Source of the DNA: an uncultured Eubacteriales bacterium
GTDB taxonomy: Bacteria > Bacillota > Clostridia > Christensenellales > Aristaeellaceae
DNA: 49,150 nt
Direction: 5' to 3'
NCBI GenBank assembly: GCA_944349855.1
Contig: CALVNS010000020.1
Coordinates: 1-49,150, forward strand
Shown here: positions 7,099 to 17,849 of the stretch, in pieces
How positions within the stretch are numbered: position 1 is the stretch's first letter
Layout: each line of letters opens with the position of its first letter
The notes under the pieces: model-generated
Databases searched by the model: none
Seen by the model: the letters and a program-made list of their open reading frames with translations, nothing else
What the model was told of the DNA's origin: nothing
Program-made: the position numbers and the translations under genes

Positions 7099-8007
7099 AT
7101 GCGCCGTGCAAACGCGCTCCTGGGCCCGCGGGTTCTGCTCGCCGCGGCCATGGTGATCTTCGGTACAATCGGCCTGATGCGCCGCGCGATCCCGCTGGGC
7201 TCCGCCACGCTGGCCGCCGTGCGCGGCCTGACGGGCATGCTCTTCCTGCTGCTCGTGCTGCGCGCGCGCGGCGAGCGCCTGCGCCCCTGCGCCCTGCGCG
7301 CAGAGGCCGGGCTGCTCATCGCCTCCGGCGCGTGCCTGGGCATCAACTGGATCCTGCTGTTTGAGGCGTACAACCACACGAGCGTCGCCGTGGCCACGAT
7401 GTGCTACTACATGGCCCCGACGATCGTGCTGCTGCTCTCGCCGCTGCTGGGCGAACGCCTGGGCATGCGAAAGGCGCTGTGCGCGCTGGCGGCGCTGGCC
7501 GGCATGGCGGCGGTGAGCGGCATCCGGCCCGGAACGGGCACCGGCACGGCGGGGGATATGGCGGGCGTCGCGCTGGGGCTGGGCGCGGCGGTGTTCTACG
7601 CCGGGGTGATGCTGCTGGGAAGGCGCATCCGCCGCACGACGGCCCTGGAGCGCACGATCTGCCAGCTGGGGGTATCGGCGGCGATCGTGCTGCCCTACGC
7701 GCTGCTGCGCGAGGAGCTGGTGGCGCTGAACGCCGGGCAGGTCCTGGCCGTGGCGGCGGTGGGCGTGGTGCACACGGGGCTGGCCTACGCGCTCTACTTC
7801 AGTGCGCTGGCCCGCGTGCGCGCGCAGACGGCGGCGCTGTACGGCTACATCGACCCGGTGGTCGCGCTGGCGCTGTCGGCGCTGGCGCTGGGCGAGCGGC
7901 TGGACGGCTGGCAGGCGGCGGGCGCGTGCTGCATCCTGCTGGCGACGGCGGTGGGGGAGTGGCGGCCCGAAAAAGCGCGCTCCGGCAGGAATTTGTGCGC
8001 AAAATGA
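7099..8007 (+). CDS. EamA/DMT-superfamily transporter
   Basis: A 302-residue membrane protein with about ten hydrophobic segments arranged as two EamA repeats (residues ~5-140 and ~150-285). Typical features are IFGTIGLMRRAIPLGSATLAAVRGLTG in the first helix pair, LGINWILLFEAYNHTSVAVATMCYYMAPTIVLLLSPLLGERL at the end of repeat one, and the matching YGYIDPVVALALSALALGERL near the C-terminus. DMT proteins of this kind export amino acids, nucleosides or other metabolites; the substrate is not evident. The start follows GGGAGGAAAATGCA. It lies after a terminator and before the promoter of the GH112 gene and seems to be transcribed alone. Confidence 0.88.
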   Translation: MRRANALLGPRVLLAAAMVIFGTIGLMRRAIPLGSATLAAVRGLTGMLFLLLVLRARGERLRPCALRAEAGLLIASGACLGINWILLFEAYNHTSVAVATMCYYMAPTIVLLLSPLLGERLGMRKALCALAALAGMAAVSGIRPGTGTGTAGDMAGVALGLGAAVFYAGVMLLGRRIRRTTALERTICQLGVSAAIVLPYALLREELVALNAGQVLAVAAVGVVHTGLAYALYFSALARVRAQTAALYGYIDPVVALALSALALGERLDGWQAAGACCILLATAVGEWRPEKARSGRNLCAK

Positions 8008-8028
8008 CTATAAAACGGGATGAAAATA

Positions 8029-8037
8029 TGGTATAAT
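8029..8037 (+). promoter_or_regulatory. Extended -10 promoter of the GH112 phosphorylase gene
   Basis: TGGTATAAT is a perfect extended -10 element (TGn-TATAAT) in an AT-rich pocket between the transporter and the phosphorylase gene. No good -35 box lies 17 bases upstream (TATAAA at 8009), as is common for extended -10 promoters. Transcription should start near 8044. Confidence 0.75.
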
Positions 8038-8068
8038 GGGGAAAAAGACGCCCAAGGGAGGCGAGCAG

Positions 8069-10240
8069 ATGAACGGCGAGGAGCGGCGGCGCGGCCGCGT
8101 GACGATCCCCACCGACCTGGACGTGGTGCCCCAGACGCTGGAACTGATGGAGCGCTGGGGCGCGGACGCGATTCGCGACTGCGACGGCACGGACTTCCCC
8201 GCGGCGCTGCGGGAGACGGGCGCGAAGGTGTACGCTACCTATTATACGACGCGCAAGGACAACGAATGGGCGCGGCAGAACCCGGACGAGGTGCAGCAGT
8301 GCTACATCATGACGGGCTTTCACGCGGCGGGGGAGGGACCGCTGGCCATCCCGCTGATGCAGGGCGTCAGCCCGGAGCTGATGCGGGTCAACGACCGGGA
8401 CGACATCGCCCGCTGGTGGGAGGTGATCGACCGCACGAGCGGCGAGGCGCTGCCGCCGGACGGCTGGCGCTACGACGCGCAGGGCGGCTGCGTGGTGATC
8501 GAGCGCCCGCGGCGCATGCACGAATACACGGTCAGCTTCCTGGCCTACCTGATCTGGGACCCGGTGCACATGTACAACGCCGTGACCAACGGCTGGACGG
8601 ACGTGGAGCACCAGATCACCTTCGACGTGCGCCAGCCCAAGACGCACCGCTACTCGATGGAGCGCCTGCGCCGCTTCATCCGCGAGCACCCGTACGTGGA
8701 TGTGATCCGCTTCACGACGTTCTTTCATCAGTTCACGCTCGTGTTTGACGAGCTGCGCCGCGAGAAGTACGTCGACTGGTACGGCTACTCCGCGTCGGTG
8801 TCGCCCTACATCCTGGAGCAGTTCGAGCGCGAGGCGGGCTACCGGTTCAGGCCGGAGTTCATCGTCGACCAGGGGTACTACAACAACCAGTACCGCGTGC
8901 CCTCGCGCGAATTCCTGGACTTTCAGGCCTTCCAGCGCCGCGAGGTCGCGCGGCTCGTGCGCGAGATGACCGACATCGTGCACGAGGAGGGCCGCGAGGC
9001 CATGATGTTCCTGGGCGATCACTGGATCGGCACGGAGCCGTTCATGCCCGAATGGCGCGGCGCCGGCGTGGACGCCGTGGTCGGCAGCGTGGGCAACGGC
9101 TCGACGCTGCGCCTGATCTCCGACATCCCCGGCGTGCGCTACACCGAGGGCCGCCTGCTGCCCTACTTCTTCCCCGACACGTTCCACCCCGGCGGCGACC
9201 CCGTCGGCCAGGCCCGCGAAAACTGGCTGACCGCCCGCCGCGCCATCCTGCGAAAGCCCATCGACCGCATCGGCTACGGCGGCTACCTCAAGCTGGCGTG
9301 CGAATTTCCCGCGTTCCTGGACTACGTGCAGCAGGTGTGCGACGAGTTCCGCGAGCTGTACGACAACGTGCGCGGCGCCACGCCCTGGTGCGCCCGCCGC
9401 GTGGCCGTGCTCAACTGCTGGGGCCGCATGCGCGCCTGGGGCTGCCACATGGTGCACCACGCGCTGTACTACAAGCAGAACTACAGCTACGCCGGCGTGA
9501 TCGAGGCGCTCTCCGGCGCGGCGCTGGAGGTGGACTGGGTCAGCTTTGAGGAGATCCGAAGGGACCCGGACCGCCTGCGGGGCATCGACGTGCTGATCAA
9601 CGTCGGCGACGCGGACACCGCCCACACCGGCGGCGTCTGGTGGGAGGACCCCGACGTGTGCGCGGCCGTGCGCGGCTTCATCCACGGCGGCGGCGGGTTC
9701 ATCGGCGTGGGCGAGCCCTCCGGCCACCCAAGGCAGGGCCGCTTCCTGCAGCTGGCCGCCGCGCTGGGCGTGGAGAAGGAGACCGGCTTCACGCTGGGCT
9801 ACGACAAGTACAACTGGGACGAGCACCGCGATCACTTCATCCTGGCGGACGCCGGCGGGGCCGTCGACTTCGGCGAGGGGAAGAAGGGCATGTACGCCCT
9901 GCCGGGCGCGCAGGTGCTCGTGCAGCGCGAGCGCGAGGTGCAACTGGCCGTCAACGCATATGGAAGCGGCCGGTGCGTCTACCTCAGCGGACTGCCCTAC
10001 AGCCGGCAAAACGCGCGCCTGCTCTACCGCGCCGCGCTCTGGGCCGCCCACGCCGAGGGCGAGCTGCGCCGCTGGCTGAGCGAAAACCCCGACGCCGAGG
10101 TACACGCCTACGTGCAAAACGGCAAGTACTGCGTGGTCAACAACACCTACGCACCGCTGGACACCACCGTCTATCGCGGCGACGGGTCGAGCTTTGACGT
10201 GCATCTGGAGCCCGGCGGCATCCGCTGGTACGCCATCTGA
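8069..10240 (+). CDS. GH112 beta-galactoside phosphorylase (galacto-N-biose/lacto-N-biose type)
   Basis: A 723-residue enzyme matching GH112 end to end from memory of the Bifidobacterium longum enzyme. Shared blocks include RVTIPTDLD at the N-terminus, HEYTVSFLAYLIWDPVHMYN, VDVIRFTTFFHQFTL, EGREAMMFLGDHWIGTEP (general acid at about Asp317), YTEGRLLPYFFPDTF, the glutamine-amidotransferase-like GGGGFIGVGEPSGHP, and GRCVYLSGLPYS. GH112 enzymes phosphorolyse a terminal beta-galactosyl bond in the cytosol, giving galactose 1-phosphate. Known acceptors are GlcNAc/GalNAc (milk and mucin glycans) or L-rhamnose, and sequence alone does not decide between them. The start at 8069 follows AAGGGAGGCGAGCAG. 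The protein is short in the loop just before VDFGEG compared with the bifidobacterial enzyme. Confidence 0.92.
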   Translation: MNGEERRRGRVTIPTDLDVVPQTLELMERWGADAIRDCDGTDFPAALRETGAKVYATYYTTRKDNEWARQNPDEVQQCYIMTGFHAAGEGPLAIPLMQGVSPELMRVNDRDDIARWWEVIDRTSGEALPPDGWRYDAQGGCVVIERPRRMHEYTVSFLAYLIWDPVHMYNAVTNGWTDVEHQITFDVRQPKTHRYSMERLRRFIREHPYVDVIRFTTFFHQFTLVFDELRREKYVDWYGYSASVSPYILEQFEREAGYRFRPEFIVDQGYYNNQYRVPSREFLDFQAFQRREVARLVREMTDIVHEEGREAMMFLGDHWIGTEPFMPEWRGAGVDAVVGSVGNGSTLRLISDIPGVRYTEGRLLPYFFPDTFHPGGDPVGQARENWLTARRAILRKPIDRIGYGGYLKLACEFPAFLDYVQQVCDEFRELYDNVRGATPWCARRVAVLNCWGRMRAWGCHMVHHALYYKQNYSYAGVIEALSGAALEVDWVSFEEIRRDPDRLRGIDVLINVGDADTAHTGGVWWEDPDVCAAVRGFIHGGGGFIGVGEPSGHPRQGRFLQLAAALGVEKETGFTLGYDKYNWDEHRDHFILADAGGAVDFGEGKKGMYALPGAQVLVQREREVQLAVNAYGSGRCVYLSGLPYSRQNARLLYRAALWAAHAEGELRRWLSENPDAEVHAYVQNGKYCVVNNTYAPLDTTVYRGDGSSFDVHLEPGGIRWYAI

Positions 10241-10295
10241 TGCGCCGGGGCCCAAAAATGACGTACGATTTCCAGCAGATTTGGCCGATGCCGTA

Positions 10296-10324
10296 TTGCG
10301 CGGTGTTCGCATTTATGCTACAAT
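10296..10324 (+). promoter_or_regulatory. Promoter of the propeller-type Opp operon
   Basis: TTGCGC at 10296-10301 and TACAAT at 10319-10324 are separated by exactly 17 bases, and TG at 10316-10317 makes the -10 extended. It lies in the only AT-rich stretch between the phosphorylase and the binding-protein gene. A leader of roughly 50 bases follows. Confidence 0.75.
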
Positions 10325-10382
10325 GTACGGTAAACAGGGATAGCGATATCCGTGTATTTCACTTTTTGAAGGGGGAAACTTC

Positions 10383-12302
10383 ATGAAGAAGCTGCTTGCC
10401 ATGCTGCTTGCGTTGGCGATGCTCTTCAGCGTAGCCCTGGCCGAAGAGGCCGCGACCTCGGAAAAGGGCGTCGTTATCTACGGCTCCACCACCGAGATCA
10501 CCGGCGACTTCGCGCCCGGCGCCTGGTGGTCCAACGGCGCCACCGACATGATGCTGCGCGATCTGACCAACGACTATGCCACCGTCGTCACCAACCAGGG
10601 CGGCGAGCTGGTCGTCAATCCGACGGTCACCAAGAGCCTGGAGACCACGGAGAATGAGGATGGCACCAAGACGTACACCATCCAGATCAACGAGGGCCTG
10701 GTGTACAACAACGGCGACGCCATCACCGCGAAGGACTTCGTGTGGCATCAGGTGCTGCTCAGCAGCCCGCTGATCACCGATCTGGCCATCACCTCCTCCG
10801 CCTATCTGAACTACGTGGGCGGCCAGGCGTTCTATGACGGCGAGGCCACCGCGCTCAGCGGCGTGCGTCTGATCGACGACTACACGTTCTCGCTGACCAT
10901 CGCGGCCGACAAGCTGCCCTACTTCTACGACCTGAACTACGCCGCTGTCTACGCGTTTGACATCGAGTACTGGCTGGGCGAAGGCTACGACGTGGCCGAC
11001 GACGGCGAGGGCTGCTACATCACCGGCGGCGAGTTCACCGCCGCGGCGATCCAGGAGCACCTGAACAACGCCCGCTTCTACGCCGGCCCCGACCGCGTGT
11101 CCGCCGGCCCGTACAACCTGGTGGAGTTCGACCAGGCCGCCCTGCAGGCGACCCTGGAGATCAACCCCAACTACGCCGGCAACTTTGAGGGCCAGAAGCC
11201 TTCCATTGAGAAGATCGTCGTCGTGCGCGCCGAGGATGCCACCTGGGCCGACGCGATGAAGACCGGCGCGTTCAACTTCTACGACACCATCACCGACGGC
11301 ACGCAGATCAACACCGCCATGGACATCATGGAGGACGAGGCTGTCGCCGCTCAGCTGGGCTACGGCTTTGACTACGTCACCTTTGACCGCCCGGGCTACG
11401 GCAAGATCCAGTTCCAGTGCGACTTTGGCCCGACGCAGTTCGTCGCCGTGCGCCAGGCGGTCGCCATGCTGCTGGACCGCAACGAGTTCGCCAACACGTT
11501 CTGCCAGGGCTGGGGCAGCGTCGTCAACGGCCCGTACGGCACCGGCCTGTGGCAGTACATGGACTCCGAGGAGTGGCTCAACGAGAACCTGAACGCCTAT
11601 GCCTATGACGCCGCCGGCGCTGTGCAGCTGCTGGTGGACGACGGCTGGGTGTACAATGCGGACGGCTCCGACTACACCGAGGGCGTGCGCTACAAGAAGG
11701 TCACCGCCGAAGAGGCCGGCACCTACGCGCACAACGTCACCCTCGAGGACGGCACCATCCTCATGCCGCTGATCATCGAGTGGTCCTCCTCTGAGAACAA
11801 CTCCGTCTCCGACCTGCTCAACGTCATGCTCGTGCAGAACCCCGACGTGGCGGCCGCCGGCATGGAGATCCGTCAGAACATCATGACGTTCGACGAGATG
11901 CTCAACTTCATCTACCGCGATGCGACCCAGGGCGAGAAGTACGGCGTGCCGACCTACGGCATGTACAACCTGGCCACCAACTGGACGCCCATCTATGACG
12001 TGGCCTACAACTTCACCGACGATCCCGAGATGGTCGCCGCCGGCTGGAATACCAACTACCTCTTCGACGAGACGATCGACCAGCTGACCATGGACATGGT
12101 CTATGGCGTGGAGTCCGACGACGTGGATACCTACCTGAGCATCTGGCAGCAGTACGTCCAGCGCTGGAACGAGCTGCTCCCCGAGATCCCGCTCTACTCC
12201 AACGTGTACGTGACCATGTACCCCGATTGGCTCGAGGGCTATACGCAGGATTCCTTCTGGGACTTCCAGCAGGCGATTCTGTACTGCACGGTCGCCGAAT
12301 AA
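10383..12302 (+). CDS. ABC transporter substrate-binding protein, family 5 (OppA/DppA-like)
   Basis: A 639-residue secreted binding protein. Residues 1-20 are a classic signal peptide (MKKLLAMLLALAMLFSVALA) ending in an A-L-A cleavage site before EEA. There is no lipobox cysteine, unusual for a Gram-positive binding protein. The mature part shows family-5 features: VTKSLETTENEDGTKTYTIQ, ITAKDFVWHQVLLSS, VSAGPYNLVEFD, and the C-terminal NELLPEIPLYSNVYVTMY. Family-5 proteins bind oligopeptides, nickel complexes or oligosaccharides. It is followed by a terminator-like hairpin and by the matching permeases and ATPases, so it delivers substrate to that importer. The adjacent GH112 phosphorylase hints at a galactoside ligand, but peptides are equally possible. 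Confidence 0.93.
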   Translation: MKKLLAMLLALAMLFSVALAEEAATSEKGVVIYGSTTEITGDFAPGAWWSNGATDMMLRDLTNDYATVVTNQGGELVVNPTVTKSLETTENEDGTKTYTIQINEGLVYNNGDAITAKDFVWHQVLLSSPLITDLAITSSAYLNYVGGQAFYDGEATALSGVRLIDDYTFSLTIAADKLPYFYDLNYAAVYAFDIEYWLGEGYDVADDGEGCYITGGEFTAAAIQEHLNNARFYAGPDRVSAGPYNLVEFDQAALQATLEINPNYAGNFEGQKPSIEKIVVVRAEDATWADAMKTGAFNFYDTITDGTQINTAMDIMEDEAVAAQLGYGFDYVTFDRPGYGKIQFQCDFGPTQFVAVRQAVAMLLDRNEFANTFCQGWGSVVNGPYGTGLWQYMDSEEWLNENLNAYAYDAAGAVQLLVDDGWVYNADGSDYTEGVRYKKVTAEEAGTYAHNVTLEDGTILMPLIIEWSSSENNSVSDLLNVMLVQNPDVAAAGMEIRQNIMTFDEMLNFIYRDATQGEKYGVPTYGMYNLATNWTPIYDVAYNFTDDPEMVAAGWNTNYLFDETIDQLTMDMVYGVESDDVDTYLSIWQQYVQRWNELLPEIPLYSNVYVTMYPDWLEGYTQDSFWDFQQAILYCTVAE

Positions 12303-12333
12303 TCCCGGCCGGCCGCCAAGCATAGGTTCCCAG

Positions 12334-12368
12334 GAGAGGGTGGGCATCGCTTGCCCGCCCTCTCTTTT
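12334..12368 (+). terminator. Intra-operon hairpin between binding protein and permease genes
   Basis: A 13-bp stem (GAGAGGGTGGGCA / TGCCCGCCCTCTC, one G-U pair) with a five-base loop is followed by TTTTAC. In binding-protein operons such hairpins give partial termination or protect the 3' end of the binding-protein mRNA, so that it is made in excess over the membrane parts. Confidence 0.75.
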
Positions 12369-12395
12369 ACGGGGCCTGAGAAGGGATGGAAAACG

Positions 12396-13415
12396 ATGGG
12401 CAAATACGTGCTCAAGCGCATCGGGTACATCGTGCTGGTCTTCCTGATCATCTCGCTGCTGATGTATGCGCTGTACAATCTGATTCCCTCCGACCCCGCG
12501 CGCGCGCAGCTGGAGGGTGTCAGGCAGACCCTGCGCCCCGATGAATACGAGACCATGTACCGGCAACTGCGCGCTCAGCTGGGCCTGGATGATCCGCTGA
12601 TTGTGCGCTATCTGCGCTGGATGGGCCTGTGGACGGACGTGGACGGAACGTTCAACGGACTGCTGCAGGGCAATCTGGGCTATTCCCAATTCTTCAAAAA
12701 GGACGCCGTCGACGTCATCGTCGAGCCGATGAAGAACACGATCTTCATCAACATCTTCTCCACGATCCTCTCGCTGGGCATCACGATCCCGGTGGGCATC
12801 TACTGCGCCGTGCGCAAGGGCAAGAAGTTCGATCAGAGCATGCAGGTGGTCACCATCCTGGGCTACAGCATCCCGATCTACATCATCTCGCTGATCTTCA
12901 TGTTCTTCTTCTGCGTGCTGTGGCGCATCTTCCCCATCATGGGCAGCCGTACTGCCGGCATCACCTACGCAAACGACTGGGAAGCGTTCGTGGACAAGCT
13001 CTACCACATCACGCTGCCCGTTATCGTCATGACGTTCGCCTCCCTTGGCGGCATGACGCGCTACGTGCGCTCCGCCATGATCGAGGCGCTGAGCATGGAC
13101 TATATCCGCACCGCGCGCGCCAAGGGCCTGCGCGAAAAGGTCGTCATCTACTCCCACGCCTGGCGCAACGCGCTGCTGCCGGTCGTCACCAGCATCTTCG
13201 GCTGGTTCCTGAGCATCTTCAGCGGCTCGGTCATCATCGAGAACACGTTCGCGCTCAACGGCATGGGCCGCCTCTACTGGCAGGGCCTGAACAATCAGGA
13301 CTTTGAGCTGGTACTGGCCATCCAGATGTTCTATACGGTCGTCTCGCTCGTGGGCAACCTGCTCATCGACGTCAGCTACGGCCTGGTCGACCCGCGCGTG
13401 CGCGTGGACAAGTGA
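12396..13415 (+). CDS. ABC transporter permease, OppB/DppB family
   Basis: A 339-residue inner-membrane permease with about six transmembrane segments. The N-terminus MGKYVLKRIGYIVLVFLII followed by NLIPSDPARAQL is the OppB signature. The large extracellular loop is followed by IVEPMKNTIFINIFSTILSLGITIPVGI, and the cytoplasmic EAA-type coupling loop reads YIRTARAKGLREKVVIYSHAWRNALLP. The C-terminus SYGLVDPRVRVDK is canonical. The start at 12396 was chosen because it follows GAAGGGATGGAAAACG and the usual N-terminus; an upstream in-frame start would fall inside the hairpin. Unlike its partner permease it has no inserted domain. Confidence 0.93.
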   Translation: MGKYVLKRIGYIVLVFLIISLLMYALYNLIPSDPARAQLEGVRQTLRPDEYETMYRQLRAQLGLDDPLIVRYLRWMGLWTDVDGTFNGLLQGNLGYSQFFKKDAVDVIVEPMKNTIFINIFSTILSLGITIPVGIYCAVRKGKKFDQSMQVVTILGYSIPIYIISLIFMFFFCVLWRIFPIMGSRTAGITYANDWEAFVDKLYHITLPVIVMTFASLGGMTRYVRSAMIEALSMDYIRTARAKGLREKVVIYSHAWRNALLPVVTSIFGWFLSIFSGSVIIENTFALNGMGRLYWQGLNNQDFELVLAIQMFYTVVSLVGNLLIDVSYGLVDPRVRVDK

Positions 13416-13431
13416 GAGAGGAGGAAGACAA

Positions 13432-15285
13432 GTGGCAAAGAGCAAGAAAAAGGGCTTCTTCCTCTGGCGCTGGCTTCGCCGCGGCGTGATGGGCGGCGAC
13501 GCCGAGGTGCGCGACATCCTGCAGGAAGAGCAGGTGCAGACCCCGCTGCGCACCGTCGTCAACAACTTCCTGCACAAAAAGCTCGCCATGACCGGCCTGA
13601 TCGTGTTCCTGTGCATCTTCCTGCTGGTGCTCATCGGGCCCCGCTACTGGGTGCTCGACCTGAGCGAGCAGGATAGCACGCTCACCAACCTGCCCCCCGG
13701 ATACAACATGATGAGCCTGCCCAAGGAGATGATCGGCAACGTCGCCGACATCGCCGCCGGCCGCACCTACGGCATCGGCATCGACCGGGACGGCCACATG
13801 TACACCTGGGGCCACACCCGCATCACCGACAAGATCGACCTGGCCGACATCCCCGACGAGGTCCGCGAGGCTGACCTGACCATGATCGCCGCCGGCGAGG
13901 ACCACGCCGTCGCCCTGGCCGAGGACGGGCAGCTCTACGTCTGGGGCAACACCCGCCTGCGCCAGGACCAGTTCTCCTCCGACATGAAGCGCGCCATGCA
14001 GAGCGGCGAGGACTGGGACATCGTGCAGCTGGAGGCCGGCAACCAGTTCTCCGCGGCCGTGTCCGCCGAGGGCACGCTCTACCTGTGGGGCAACACCAAC
14101 ATGGCCGACGCCAAGATCCGCAGCGAGTACCAGGGCAACATCCAGAAGGTCGCGCTGACCTCCAACGAGTACATCGCCCTGCTCAAGGACGGCACCGTCG
14201 CCTACACCGGCTACAAGGGCAGCGGCAACCCGCTGGCCAGCATCCCCGCGGGGCTGGAGGGCAAGAAGGTCGTCGACATCGCCTCCACCGCCAAGACCGC
14301 CGCCGCGCTCACCGAGGACGGCGAGGTGTACGTGTGGGGCAACACCGGCTCCGGCGAGGGCAACATCCCCGCCTTTGAGGCCAGGGTCACGCACCTGTAC
14401 GGCGGGCGCGCCCACTACACCGCGCTACTCGAGGACGGCTCCGTCGTCTCCTGGGGCAACAACAAGTACGGCCAGACCGACGTGCCCGACAGCCTGGAGG
14501 GCAAGCAGGTCACGGCCATCTACACCGGCAACTTCCAGAACTACGCACTCGACGCCGACGGAAACGTCTACACCTGGGGCCTCAAGGGCTTCCCGCTGGG
14601 CACCGACGACCTGGGCCGCGACATGCTCACCCGCATCATCAACGGCGGACGCGTCACCATGACCGTCGGCGCCATCTCCGTGGTCATCGCCACGCTCATC
14701 GGCGTGATCCTGGGCGGCCTGGCCGGCTACTTCGGCGGCAAGGTCGACATCCTCGTCATGCGCATCTCCGAAATCGTCGGCGGCCTGCCCTTCATCCCCT
14801 TCGCGATGATCCTCTCCGCCGTCATCGGCACGCGCATCGACCCCACCCGACGCATGTACCTCATCATGGTCGTGCTCGGCGTGCTCAGCTGGACCGGCAC
14901 CTGCCGCCTCATCCGCGCGCAGATCCTCGCCCAGCGCGAGATGGAATACGTCACCGCCGCCAAGGCCATGGGCATTCGCGAGGTCTCCATCGTCTTCCGC
15001 CACATCCTGCCCAACGTGTTCTCCCTGCTGCTGGTGAGCATGACGCTCGACTTCGCCACCTGCATGCTGACCGAGTCCACGCTCTCCTACCTGGGCTTTG
15101 GCATCCCGCTGCCCACGCCCACCTGGGGCAATCTGCTCGACGGCGCCAACAACTCCGTCGTCATCCAGCAGTACTGGTGGCGCTGGGTCTTCCCCGCCGC
15201 CATCTTCGGCGTGTGCACCATCTGCATCAACCTCGTCGGCGACGGCCTGCGCGATGCGATCGACCCCAAGTCCAATGAACGCTGA
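13432..15285 (+). CDS. ABC transporter permease, OppC/DppC family, with an inserted RCC1-type beta-propeller
   Basis: A 617-residue protein, about twice normal OppC length. Residues 1-50 are a basic cytosolic tail and residues ~53-71 are TM1 (MTGLIVFLCIFLLVLIG). Normally a short extracellular loop then leads to GTDDLGRD; here that motif starts at residue ~390 and the space holds seven repeats of the form D-G-x-(V/L/M)-Y-x-W-G-N. The Trp positions are 126, 171, 219, (Thr259), 302, 341 and 382, spaced 39-48 residues, which fits a seven-bladed RCC1/ATS1-like propeller at ~103-386. The rest is ordinary OppC, with the coupling loop EYVTAAKAMGIREVSIVFRHILPN and the end DGLRDAIDPK. Standard topology puts the propeller outside the cell. 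The start is GTG at 13432 after GAGAGAGGAGGAAG. The gene is intact, with no stop or frameshift at the junctions. Confidence 0.93.
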   Translation: MAKSKKKGFFLWRWLRRGVMGGDAEVRDILQEEQVQTPLRTVVNNFLHKKLAMTGLIVFLCIFLLVLIGPRYWVLDLSEQDSTLTNLPPGYNMMSLPKEMIGNVADIAAGRTYGIGIDRDGHMYTWGHTRITDKIDLADIPDEVREADLTMIAAGEDHAVALAEDGQLYVWGNTRLRQDQFSSDMKRAMQSGEDWDIVQLEAGNQFSAAVSAEGTLYLWGNTNMADAKIRSEYQGNIQKVALTSNEYIALLKDGTVAYTGYKGSGNPLASIPAGLEGKKVVDIASTAKTAAALTEDGEVYVWGNTGSGEGNIPAFEARVTHLYGGRAHYTALLEDGSVVSWGNNKYGQTDVPDSLEGKQVTAIYTGNFQNYALDADGNVYTWGLKGFPLGTDDLGRDMLTRIINGGRVTMTVGAISVVIATLIGVILGGLAGYFGGKVDILVMRISEIVGGLPFIPFAMILSAVIGTRIDPTRRMYLIMVVLGVLSWTGTCRLIRAQILAQREMEYVTAAKAMGIREVSIVFRHILPNVFSLLLVSMTLDFATCMLTESTLSYLGFGIPLPTPTWGNLLDGANNSVVIQQYWWRWVFPAAIFGVCTICINLVGDGLRDAIDPKSNER

Positions 15286-15298
15286 GGAGGTGTGACGA

Positions 15299-16277
<979 letters not shown>

Positions 16278-16291
<14 letters not shown>

Positions 16292-17849
16292 CGACAACCC
16301 GCGCGTGCTGCTGCGCATCACCAACCTCAAGCAGTACTTCCCCCTCAAGCGCAGGGGCCTGTACGTGCGCGCCAACGACGGCATCACGCTGGACATCTAC
16401 GAGGGCGAGACGCTCGGCCTGGTCGGCGAGTCCGGCTGCGGCAAGTCCACCTTGGGCCGCACGCTGCTGCAGCTCTACCGCCAGACCGACGGGCGCACCA
16501 TGTACTATGGCCGCACGCTGGACGACCTGGCCCCCAAGTACGTCGGCCAGACCCTCGCGACGCTTGACAAGCGCCGCGCGCAGCTCAAGACGCTGCGCGA
16601 GCGCCGCGACGCCGTGCGCCGCGAGTACGACGCCCTGCCCGACGGCAAGGCCAAGTACGCCAAGTACAACGACCTCACCCGCGCCGAAAAGGAGGCCAAC
16701 GACGCCTTCCTGGACATGGCGAATCTGATTGGCGGCTTCATCAACGCGCCCGACCTCAAGCCCGTGTCCGAGGCGTTTCTCAAGGTCTACCGCATCTCCT
16801 CCAGGCTGTGCGCCGCCGAGCGCAAGCTGGAGGACCTGCGCCTCGCCTTTGACGACGCCGACTTTGCCGCCGCCGAGGCCGTGCGCGCCGGCAAGAACCC
16901 CGCCGCCCAGCGCGCCCGCGCCGAAAAGCGCAAGGCCGCCGTGCGCGCGCAGGAAAAGGCCATCGAAGACCTGCGCGCGCAGGTCGCCCAGGCCCGCGGC
17001 GAGATCGAGCGCATGCGCGAGCAGTACCGGGACGACCCCGAGTTTCAGCGCCTGGAGGCCTTCCGCGACGAGGGCGTCGACTTGGCCCGCCTGCGCTACG
17101 ACGAGATCCGCCGCCTGCGCCGCGACCTGCAGATGATCTTCCAGGACCCCTACTCCTCGCTCAATCCCCGCATGACCGTCGGCCAGATCGTCGGCGAGGG
17201 CATGCGCGCGCACAAGTTCTTCAAGCGCAACGACAAGCGCATGCAGGACGAGATCCTGCGCGTGATGGACGAGGCCGGCCTGGCCAGCTACTTCCTGCAC
17301 CGCTATCCGCACCAGTTCTCCGGCGGCCAGCGCCAGCGCATCGGCATCGCCCGCTCGCTGGCCGTGCGCCCCAAGTTCGTCGTGTGCGACGAGGCCGTCA
17401 GCGCGCTGGACGTATCCATCCAGTCCCAGATCATCAACCTGCTGCGCGACCTCAAGGAGCAGCAGCACCTCACCTACCTGTTCATCACGCACGACCTGTC
17501 GGTCGTCAAGTACATCTCCGACCGCATCGGCGTCATGTACCTGGGCAACCTCGTCGAGCTCGCGCCCGCGCAGGAGCTGTTCGACCACCCGCGCCATCCC
17601 TATACCGAGGCGCTGATGGCCGCCATCCCCACCACCGACGTGGACAACCCGCGCGAGATGCGCATCCTCGAGGGCGACATCCCCAGCCCCGTCAACCCGC
17701 CCGCCGGCTGCAAGTTCCACACCCGCTGCCGCTACTGCACCGAGATCTGCGAGCACGCGGTGCCCGACTGGACCCAGGTCGGCCCCAATCACTTCGTCGC
17801 CTGCCACCATATGCTCGGCGCGCAGGACGGGGCCAAGGCCGGCGACTGA
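16278..17849 (+). CDS. Oligopeptide-type ABC transporter ATPase, OppF/DppF family, with a long helical insertion
   Basis: A 523-residue ATPase; the family is usually ~310-340. Walker A GESGCGKST is at 50-58, the Q-loop MIFQDPYSSLNP at ~286-297, signature FSGGQRQR at ~347, and Walker B FVVCDEAVSALD ends at ~378. Between Walker A and the Q-loop there are ~230 residues instead of ~45. The extra segment (~88-272) is rich in Arg, Lys, Glu, Ala and Leu, with heptad-like stretches (KRRAQLKTLRERRDAVRREY; KRKAAVRAQEKAIEDLRAQV) typical of coiled coils, plus a middle hydrophobic helical section. All ATPase residues are intact, so the insertion is not obvious damage. It is encoded with OppD and the propeller-bearing OppC. 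The insertion site faces the arm near the Q-loop, where ATPases contact permease coupling helices. Confidence 0.93.

Follow-up and report, generated by a model that had tools for sequence, protein, structure and literature searches.

We found that an OppC-type permease of an uncultured Eubacteriales bacterium carries a seven-bladed RCC1-like propeller in the loop between its first two transmembrane helices (TM1 and TM2), and that this fusion recurs, as a single clade, in many other genomes. The gene lies in the window, the stretch of 49,150 nucleotides that was analysed here, within an operon whose genes all run on the + strand in the order SBP (substrate-binding protein), OppB, OppC, OppD and OppF (Table 1). 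Architecture, fold, conservation, clade and operon context are established below from sequence and structure prediction.

Table 1. Features of the propeller importer operon (positions in the window; residue numbers refer to the protein concerned).
Feature	Position	Strand	Basis or remark
Substrate-binding protein, SBP_bac_5 (cluster C), 639 aa	10383..12302	+	signal peptide without lipobox
OppB permease partner	12393..13415	+	
Shine-Dalgarno AGGAGGA of oppC	13419..13425	+	
RCC1-propeller OppC permease	13432..15285	+	617 aa; GTG start, stop included
Cytoplasmic N-terminus, residues 1-48	13432..13575	+	sequence; low pLDDT up to residue 36
TM1, residues about 49-72, within OppC_N	13576..13647	+	helix 50-72 in AlphaFold2; PF12911 37-89
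Linker from TM1 to propeller, residues 73-101	13648..13734	+	
Seven-bladed RCC1-like propeller, residues about 102-385	13735..14586	+	Pfam, AlphaFold2 and fold comparison
Blade 1, residues 104-127	13741..13812	+	DSSP of AlphaFold2 model
Blade 2, residues 149-172	13876..13947	+	AlphaFold2
Blade 3, residues 197-220	14020..14091	+	AlphaFold2
Blade 4, degenerate repeat, residues 237-258	14140..14205	+	AlphaFold2; third strand very short
Blade 5, residues 280-303	14269..14340	+	AlphaFold2
Blade 6, residues 319-342	14386..14457	+	AlphaFold2
Blade 7, residues 360-383, conserved Q369-N370-Y371	14509..14580	+	AlphaFold2 and alignment
OppC core with GTDDLGRD, TM2-TM6 and EAA loop, residues 386-617	14587..15282	+	
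OppD ATPase	15299..16291	+	
OppF ATPase, 523 aa	16278..17849	+	
OppF insert of about 180 aa, residues about 85-265, approximate limits	16530..17072	+	breaks in profile coverage

The oppC frame runs unbroken on the + strand from the GTG at 13432 to the stop at 15283-15285, so that the single uninterrupted frame of the original prediction was borne out. Pfam placed OppC_N at residues 37-89 (36.2 bits against a cut-off of 23.9) and BPD_transp_1 at residues 424-613 (107.2 bits, cut-off 26.4). RCC1_2 was matched by six stretches of the protein with 129.7 bits (cut-off 22, E 1.9e-38) and RCC1 with 26.7 bits (cut-off 21.7); WD40_RLD (PF25390) stayed below its cut-off, at 135.6 against 150 bits. The best NCBIfam model was Opp4C, matched from residue 387 on with 290.3 bits, below its equivalog cut-off of 350; judged by these scores, the OppC core is closest to Opp4C yet falls outside that equivalog. 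Seven repeats of the form DG-x-(V/L)-Y-x-WGN had been predicted. The count of seven stood and the consensus proved slightly idealised: WG is present at residues 126, 171, 219, 302, 341 and 382, strict WGN in four of the seven repeats (171, 219, 302 and 341), and the fourth repeat is degenerate, with TG at 259-260. All five RCC1_2 matches (E up to 0.001) in the genome that contains the window lie inside the propeller oppC, and five other OppC-type permeases match in this genome. An OppC on another of its contigs (G000:C8) had been considered as a long-loop case on account of a 607-aa frame; this was rejected, since the OppC itself is of the ordinary type and is preceded by an open frame.

The expected fold was recovered by AlphaFold2, which gave a closed propeller of seven three-stranded blades (residues 104-383) with pLDDT values of 83-96 per ten-residue block. 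The OppC model superposes on E. coli OppC (8z21_B) over 276 of 278 residues, and the TM part folds like solved OppC. By fold, the closest solved relatives of the propeller are BLIP-II, to which it is 24-30% identical, and UVR8. Unlike the propellers of BLIP-II, UVR8, HERC and RCC1, however, the one in the window sits inside a membrane permease. The start of TM1 is basic (NNFLHKKLA, residues 44-52), and AAKAMGIREVSIVFRHILP, which begins at residue 509, we take to be the EAA-type segment between the fourth and fifth TM helices. Together these two marks indicate that TM1 runs from inside to outside and that the propeller is extracellular, in agreement with the topology proposed before. Excerpts of a study of E. 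coli Dpp likewise place the TM1-TM2 regions of DppB and DppC in the periplasm (PMC12136057). Nucleotide exchange or chromatin binding of the eukaryotic RCC1 type is unlikely, since the predicted extracellular site argues against it.

We then considered how widely the fusion is distributed. A contig scan gave 175 stretches encoding relatives of the propeller OppC, and the best 80 loci were kept; the propeller was present in 80/80 of these. Their host titles are mostly Clostridia, Christensenella, Lachnospiraceae, Oscillospiraceae and Erysipelotrichaceae. One locus (L001, Candidatus Onthenecus intestinigallinarum) is 99-100% identical, so that the window probably belongs to this species or its genus; another (L055) comes from a named strain, Hungatella effluvii DSM 24995, and L068 has no MAG label. 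Full-length propeller OppC was found in 7 of 60 related genomes (G000, G002, G027, G057, G030, G031 and G035), and a C-terminal fragment of one lies at the edge of a contig in G021. Of 398 genomes that sample the phylum evenly, 14 encode a propeller OppC, with propeller identity down to 30% and the fusion to OppC verified. The best 14 matches to the OppC core alone fell in the same 14 genomes (49-100% identity, at least 267 bits), and the next core match, at 239 bits, was an ordinary OppC. Conservation of the fusion in related genomes, which the original prediction had named as support, was observed. Propeller matches occurred in 28 plasmid records, and no permease was named among the 12 matches listed.

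A tree was calculated from 74 OppC cores, with the insert excluded from the sequences and the root placed at the midpoint. The 43 propeller-bearing cores (25 of the 80 loci and 18 from other genomes) all lay on one side of one branch, which had a bootstrap of 100 and an SH-aLRT of 98; a single change was required, also in 100% of 200 bootstrap trees. No propeller-less OppC was found within the propeller clade among the 74 rows. The propeller was most likely acquired once by OppC, and it has diversified together with the core.

The TM1-TM2 loop comprises 305-335 aa in the 80 propeller OppCs, not 19-49 aa as in the 15 plain OppCs listed out of the 20 in the tree. The earlier statement that known OppC proteins have only a short loop there holds for these 15 and fails as a universal: among ten further OppC loci chosen for long frames or strong scores, and thus not at random, L148 was plain and the other nine had long loops, none of them of the propeller kind. 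These other insert-bearing proteins formed two separate, well-supported clades. The first contains L139, L140, L144, L146 and L147, and the second contains L141, L142, L143, L145 and L181, the last of which was met in the core search. A further insert-bearing OppC, L153, has a very long branch, and its placement is unsure. The non-propeller loops measure 214-400 residues (nine measured, all but L146 and L153), and the eight scanned with Pfam (L139-L145 and L147) gave no match at E 0.01. Since different inserts occupy the same OppC loop in at least two separate lineages, the slot has been filled more than once, and the RCC1 propeller is so far the one recognisable type of insert in it. Perhaps this loop is a general plug-in slot in gut Clostridia and their allies, in which different large extracellular domains were placed independently, a generalisation that we regard as doubtful. 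If it were true, there would be a class of peptide importers with built-in receptor or docking modules, and with extra selectivity beside the SBP.

Conservation was analysed in an alignment of 80 rows, made up of the window and 79 of the 80 loci. Gaps amounted to 0.7% in the propeller, and mean identity to the window protein was 56% in the propeller and 81% in the core; by this comparison the propeller evolves much faster than the OppC core. We calculated dN/dS for 30 pairs without overlap, taken from a total of 999. Seven of these were close (propeller dN below 0.11) and gave values of 0.03-0.20 for the propeller and 0.01-0.07 for the core. All 30 propeller values were below 1, the distant pairs reaching up to 0.85 (L048/L054); the ratios of distant pairs are regarded as unreliable, since dS is saturated or affected by codon bias. 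Judged from these ratios, the propeller is under purifying selection. With glycine excluded, conservation was stronger on the side formed by the A-B turns and post-C loops than on that of the DG turns (entropy difference -0.69, p 0.0014), also when 16 divergent members were added (-0.47, p 0.014); sides were assigned by strand order and positions treated as independent, and part of the difference may reflect the general RCC1-repeat consensus. In blade 7, Q369, N370 and Y371 are kept in 79/80, 80/80 and 80/80 rows, and in 16/16, 13/16 and 15/16 divergent rows, respectively.

OppB was encoded beside the propeller OppC in 80/80 of the best loci, which were kept from the 175 stretches; the SBP was present in 74/80, OppD in 78/80 and OppF in 73/80, and genes absent from some loci fall beyond contig ends. 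The binding protein in the window resembles OppA/DppA. In 13/80 loci an M3 oligoendopeptidase gene lies about 0.7 kb or less from the operon, and in 7/80 an M42 aminopeptidase gene lies within 1.5 kb, so that one or the other is near the operon in 20/80; three representatives of these peptidases were confirmed in Pfam and the others assigned by BLAST. The OppA/DppA-like SBP and the M3 and M42 neighbours suggest that the propeller system imports peptides. Among the neighbouring genes, no family recurred at more than 13 of the 80 loci.

In a further step, co-variation was investigated by a mirror-tree test with 300 permutations on the 61 of 80 loci in which all five genes were long enough. The expected pairs gave partial r values of 0.60 (OppD-OppF), 0.455 (OppB-SBP) and 0.45 (core-OppB). 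For the propeller, partial r was 0.35 with the core and 0.22 with OppB (0/300 permutations each); the core-SBP value was 0.14 (8/300). Between propeller and SBP, no co-variation beyond the operon background was found in these 61 loci (partial r 0.07, 37/300). The propeller-OppF value of 0.43 (0/300) is not read as contact, since OppF is cytosolic, and it marks the test as noisy. The pattern, to which we give low weight, speaks mildly against strong docking of the SBP and for a role at the OppB/OppC mouth. The earlier proposal had been that an outward-facing propeller could dock the binding protein, capture substrate or gate the channel; its extracellular seven-bladed architecture has held up, and direct SBP docking is the part that the low propeller-SBP value disfavours.

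Comparison with known systems helps to frame a possible role. The solved permeases E. coli OppC (8z21), E. coli DppC (8z1v) and M. tuberculosis OppC (8j5q) share OppC_N, BPD_transp_1 and the GTD-GRD motif with the propeller OppC, and OppC/DppC permeases have the same OppB, OppD, OppF and SBP partners. MalF-P2 of the maltose importer may work in a comparable way, being also a folded extracellular domain in a loop of a type I importer permease; work by Daus in 2009 is said to have found that it interacts with MalE through the cycle. MalF, however, belongs to a different permease family from OppC, and P2 occupies the TM3-TM4 loop and has a smaller fold unrelated to the propeller. In OpuA, substrate-binding domains are linked to the permease. 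A substrate-binding domain is also covalently attached, extracellularly, to the permease in GlnPQ, according to the excerpted text of PMC8025302. The domain attached in GlnPQ and OpuA is thus the SBP, whereas in the propeller OppC it is an RCC1 propeller and the SBP has a gene of its own; with this fold, the insert is not a fusion of the GlnPQ/OpuA type. In DppABCDF, the TM1-TM2 region of DppB bears a scoop motif that reaches into the DppA cleft, grips the SBP and seals the cavity, as given in excerpts of PMC12136057. The scoop lies in the same region as the propeller but in the partner permease subunit, and it consists of two short helices and a loop, whereas the propeller is a whole domain in the C subunit.

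Because the propeller occupies the loop corresponding to that of the DppB scoop, a role where SBP and permease meet is a natural hypothesis. We thus favour, at slightly less than even confidence, an accessory module next to the SBP and the OppB scoop that forms a vestibule or serves in docking. Function and orientation are both inferred in the following model. A type I ABC peptide importer (SBP, OppB, OppC, OppD and OppF) has gained an RCC1/BLIP-II-like propeller in the TM1-TM2 loop of OppC, where it could form a rigid module at the channel mouth, on the OppC side and opposite the OppB scoop motif. There it may take part in the encounter of SBP and permease and help to position the loaded binding protein, and/or it may wall a vestibule that steers released peptide into the channel instead of letting it escape, much as MalF-P2 and the DppB scoop act in their own systems. 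The conserved A-B-turn and post-C side would face the membrane and the OppB/OppC mouth, an orientation suggested by its conservation and by the only about 15 residues that join blade 7 to TM2.

The main rival, possible though less probable, is that the propeller never touches the SBP and binds a third party (a cell-wall polymer, an extracellular peptidase, or a protein or peptide ligand), as a receptor or as a platform for adhesion, which would hold the importer where its food is made. BLIP-II and UVR8, going by the titles of their structures, were both solved bound to other proteins, and the missing propeller-SBP co-variation fits such a role, as do the other large inserts, of no named family, in the same loop of other OppCs, which would be expected of exchangeable binding modules. 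In the phylum sample, other long open frames often give matches too, and the honeybee-gut bifidobacteria described in excerpts of PMC4449606 have diversifying, LPxTG-anchored RCC1-repeat surface proteins that are not permeases; the RCC1 domain is thus used at bacterial surfaces, in quite different proteins. The near-gapless conservation, however, points to a partner that stays the same, and with no family beside more than 13/80 loci, no constant third party is encoded nearby.

Direct binding of peptides by the propeller, for instance in its central funnel, would give the permease a second substrate site of low affinity; we consider this improbable. The peptidase genes nearby and the fold of the SBP do indicate peptide substrates, and conserved polar residues lie on one side, but no peptide-transport receptor is among the RCC1 propeller matches listed. 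Still less likely is a tolerated insertion in a permissive loop, of no importance for transport. This loop did take other inserts in at least two separate lineages, but the close-pair dN/dS of 0.03-0.20, the scarcity of gaps, the retention of the whole propeller down to 30% identity and the lack of propeller-less OppCs inside the clade (74-row tree) argue against it. Finally, an assembly chimera or misread frame, for which the draft assembly of 99 contigs might have spoken, is refuted, since the fusion recurs, near-gapless and beside OppB, in 80 loci in other assemblies, including that of H. effluvii DSM 24995, and in 14 of the 398 sampled genomes.

Peptide importers are well studied, and the usual view of their permease subunits is that of bare channels dependent on a separate binding protein. 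In open-licence full texts we found no literature on an RCC1-bearing permease; the parts are known, and neither their combination nor its age nor the repeated use of the slot appears to be described there. A conserved, anciently acquired propeller together with a refilled loop would mean that commensal gut bacteria have an unexamined layer of machinery outside the cell, and the propeller OppC could show by what means peptides are captured by abundant gut Clostridia.

The binding protein was considered separately. The idea that the propeller substitutes for an SBP lipid anchor was rejected: SBPs of many other propeller operons are lipoprotein-like, so the missing lipobox is not tied to the propeller. 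A lipobox was flagged in 38/74 SBP frames of propeller operons by a crude pattern, which seems to have flagged L024 and L025 falsely and to have missed L051 and L073. In the window's genome, the starts of six out of eight SBPs were readable, five of them without a lipobox and one (L093) ambiguous; Lgt is encoded in this genome. The SBP of the window (signal region 10383-10460) and at least four others there have a signal peptide and no lipobox despite Lgt. Invariable pairing of this SBP family with the propeller was also rejected, as 15 of 16 neighbourhoods of SBP relatives (13 genomes, 27-34% identity; 11 genomes without a full-length propeller permease match) lacked OppB/OppC, two of these contigs being under 7 kb. 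One such relative lies in the window's genome (L102, 6912-8996, +, G000:C30), with no OppB/OppC nearby, and the same is seen among L149-L164. In a divergent propeller operon (L105, G031:C3), the SBP, a 775-aa open frame at 9417-11744 (-), looks circularly permuted: residues 565-633 of the window SBP match positions 120-198 of this frame, its residues 25-550 match positions 201-753, and the SBP_bac_5 match begins only at residue 231 of the 736-aa piece scanned.

The insert in OppF sits between the Walker A region and the remaining ATPase, and matches of the window OppF to other ATPases of the same genome start at residue 263 or later. OppF frames in propeller operons measure 482-623 aa, except for pieces of 292-386 aa in L004, L018 and L028. 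Directly upstream of the operon, 8036-10240 (+) encodes a 1,3-beta-galactosyl-N-acetylhexosamine phosphorylase (TIGR02336, 918 bits), which among the 80 propeller loci is found on the operon strand in L001 alone. Two very long antisense open frames, 7799-10312 (-) and 10359-13634 (-), of 837 and 1091 aa, lie opposite coding genes and are probably a by-product of G+C-rich codon use.
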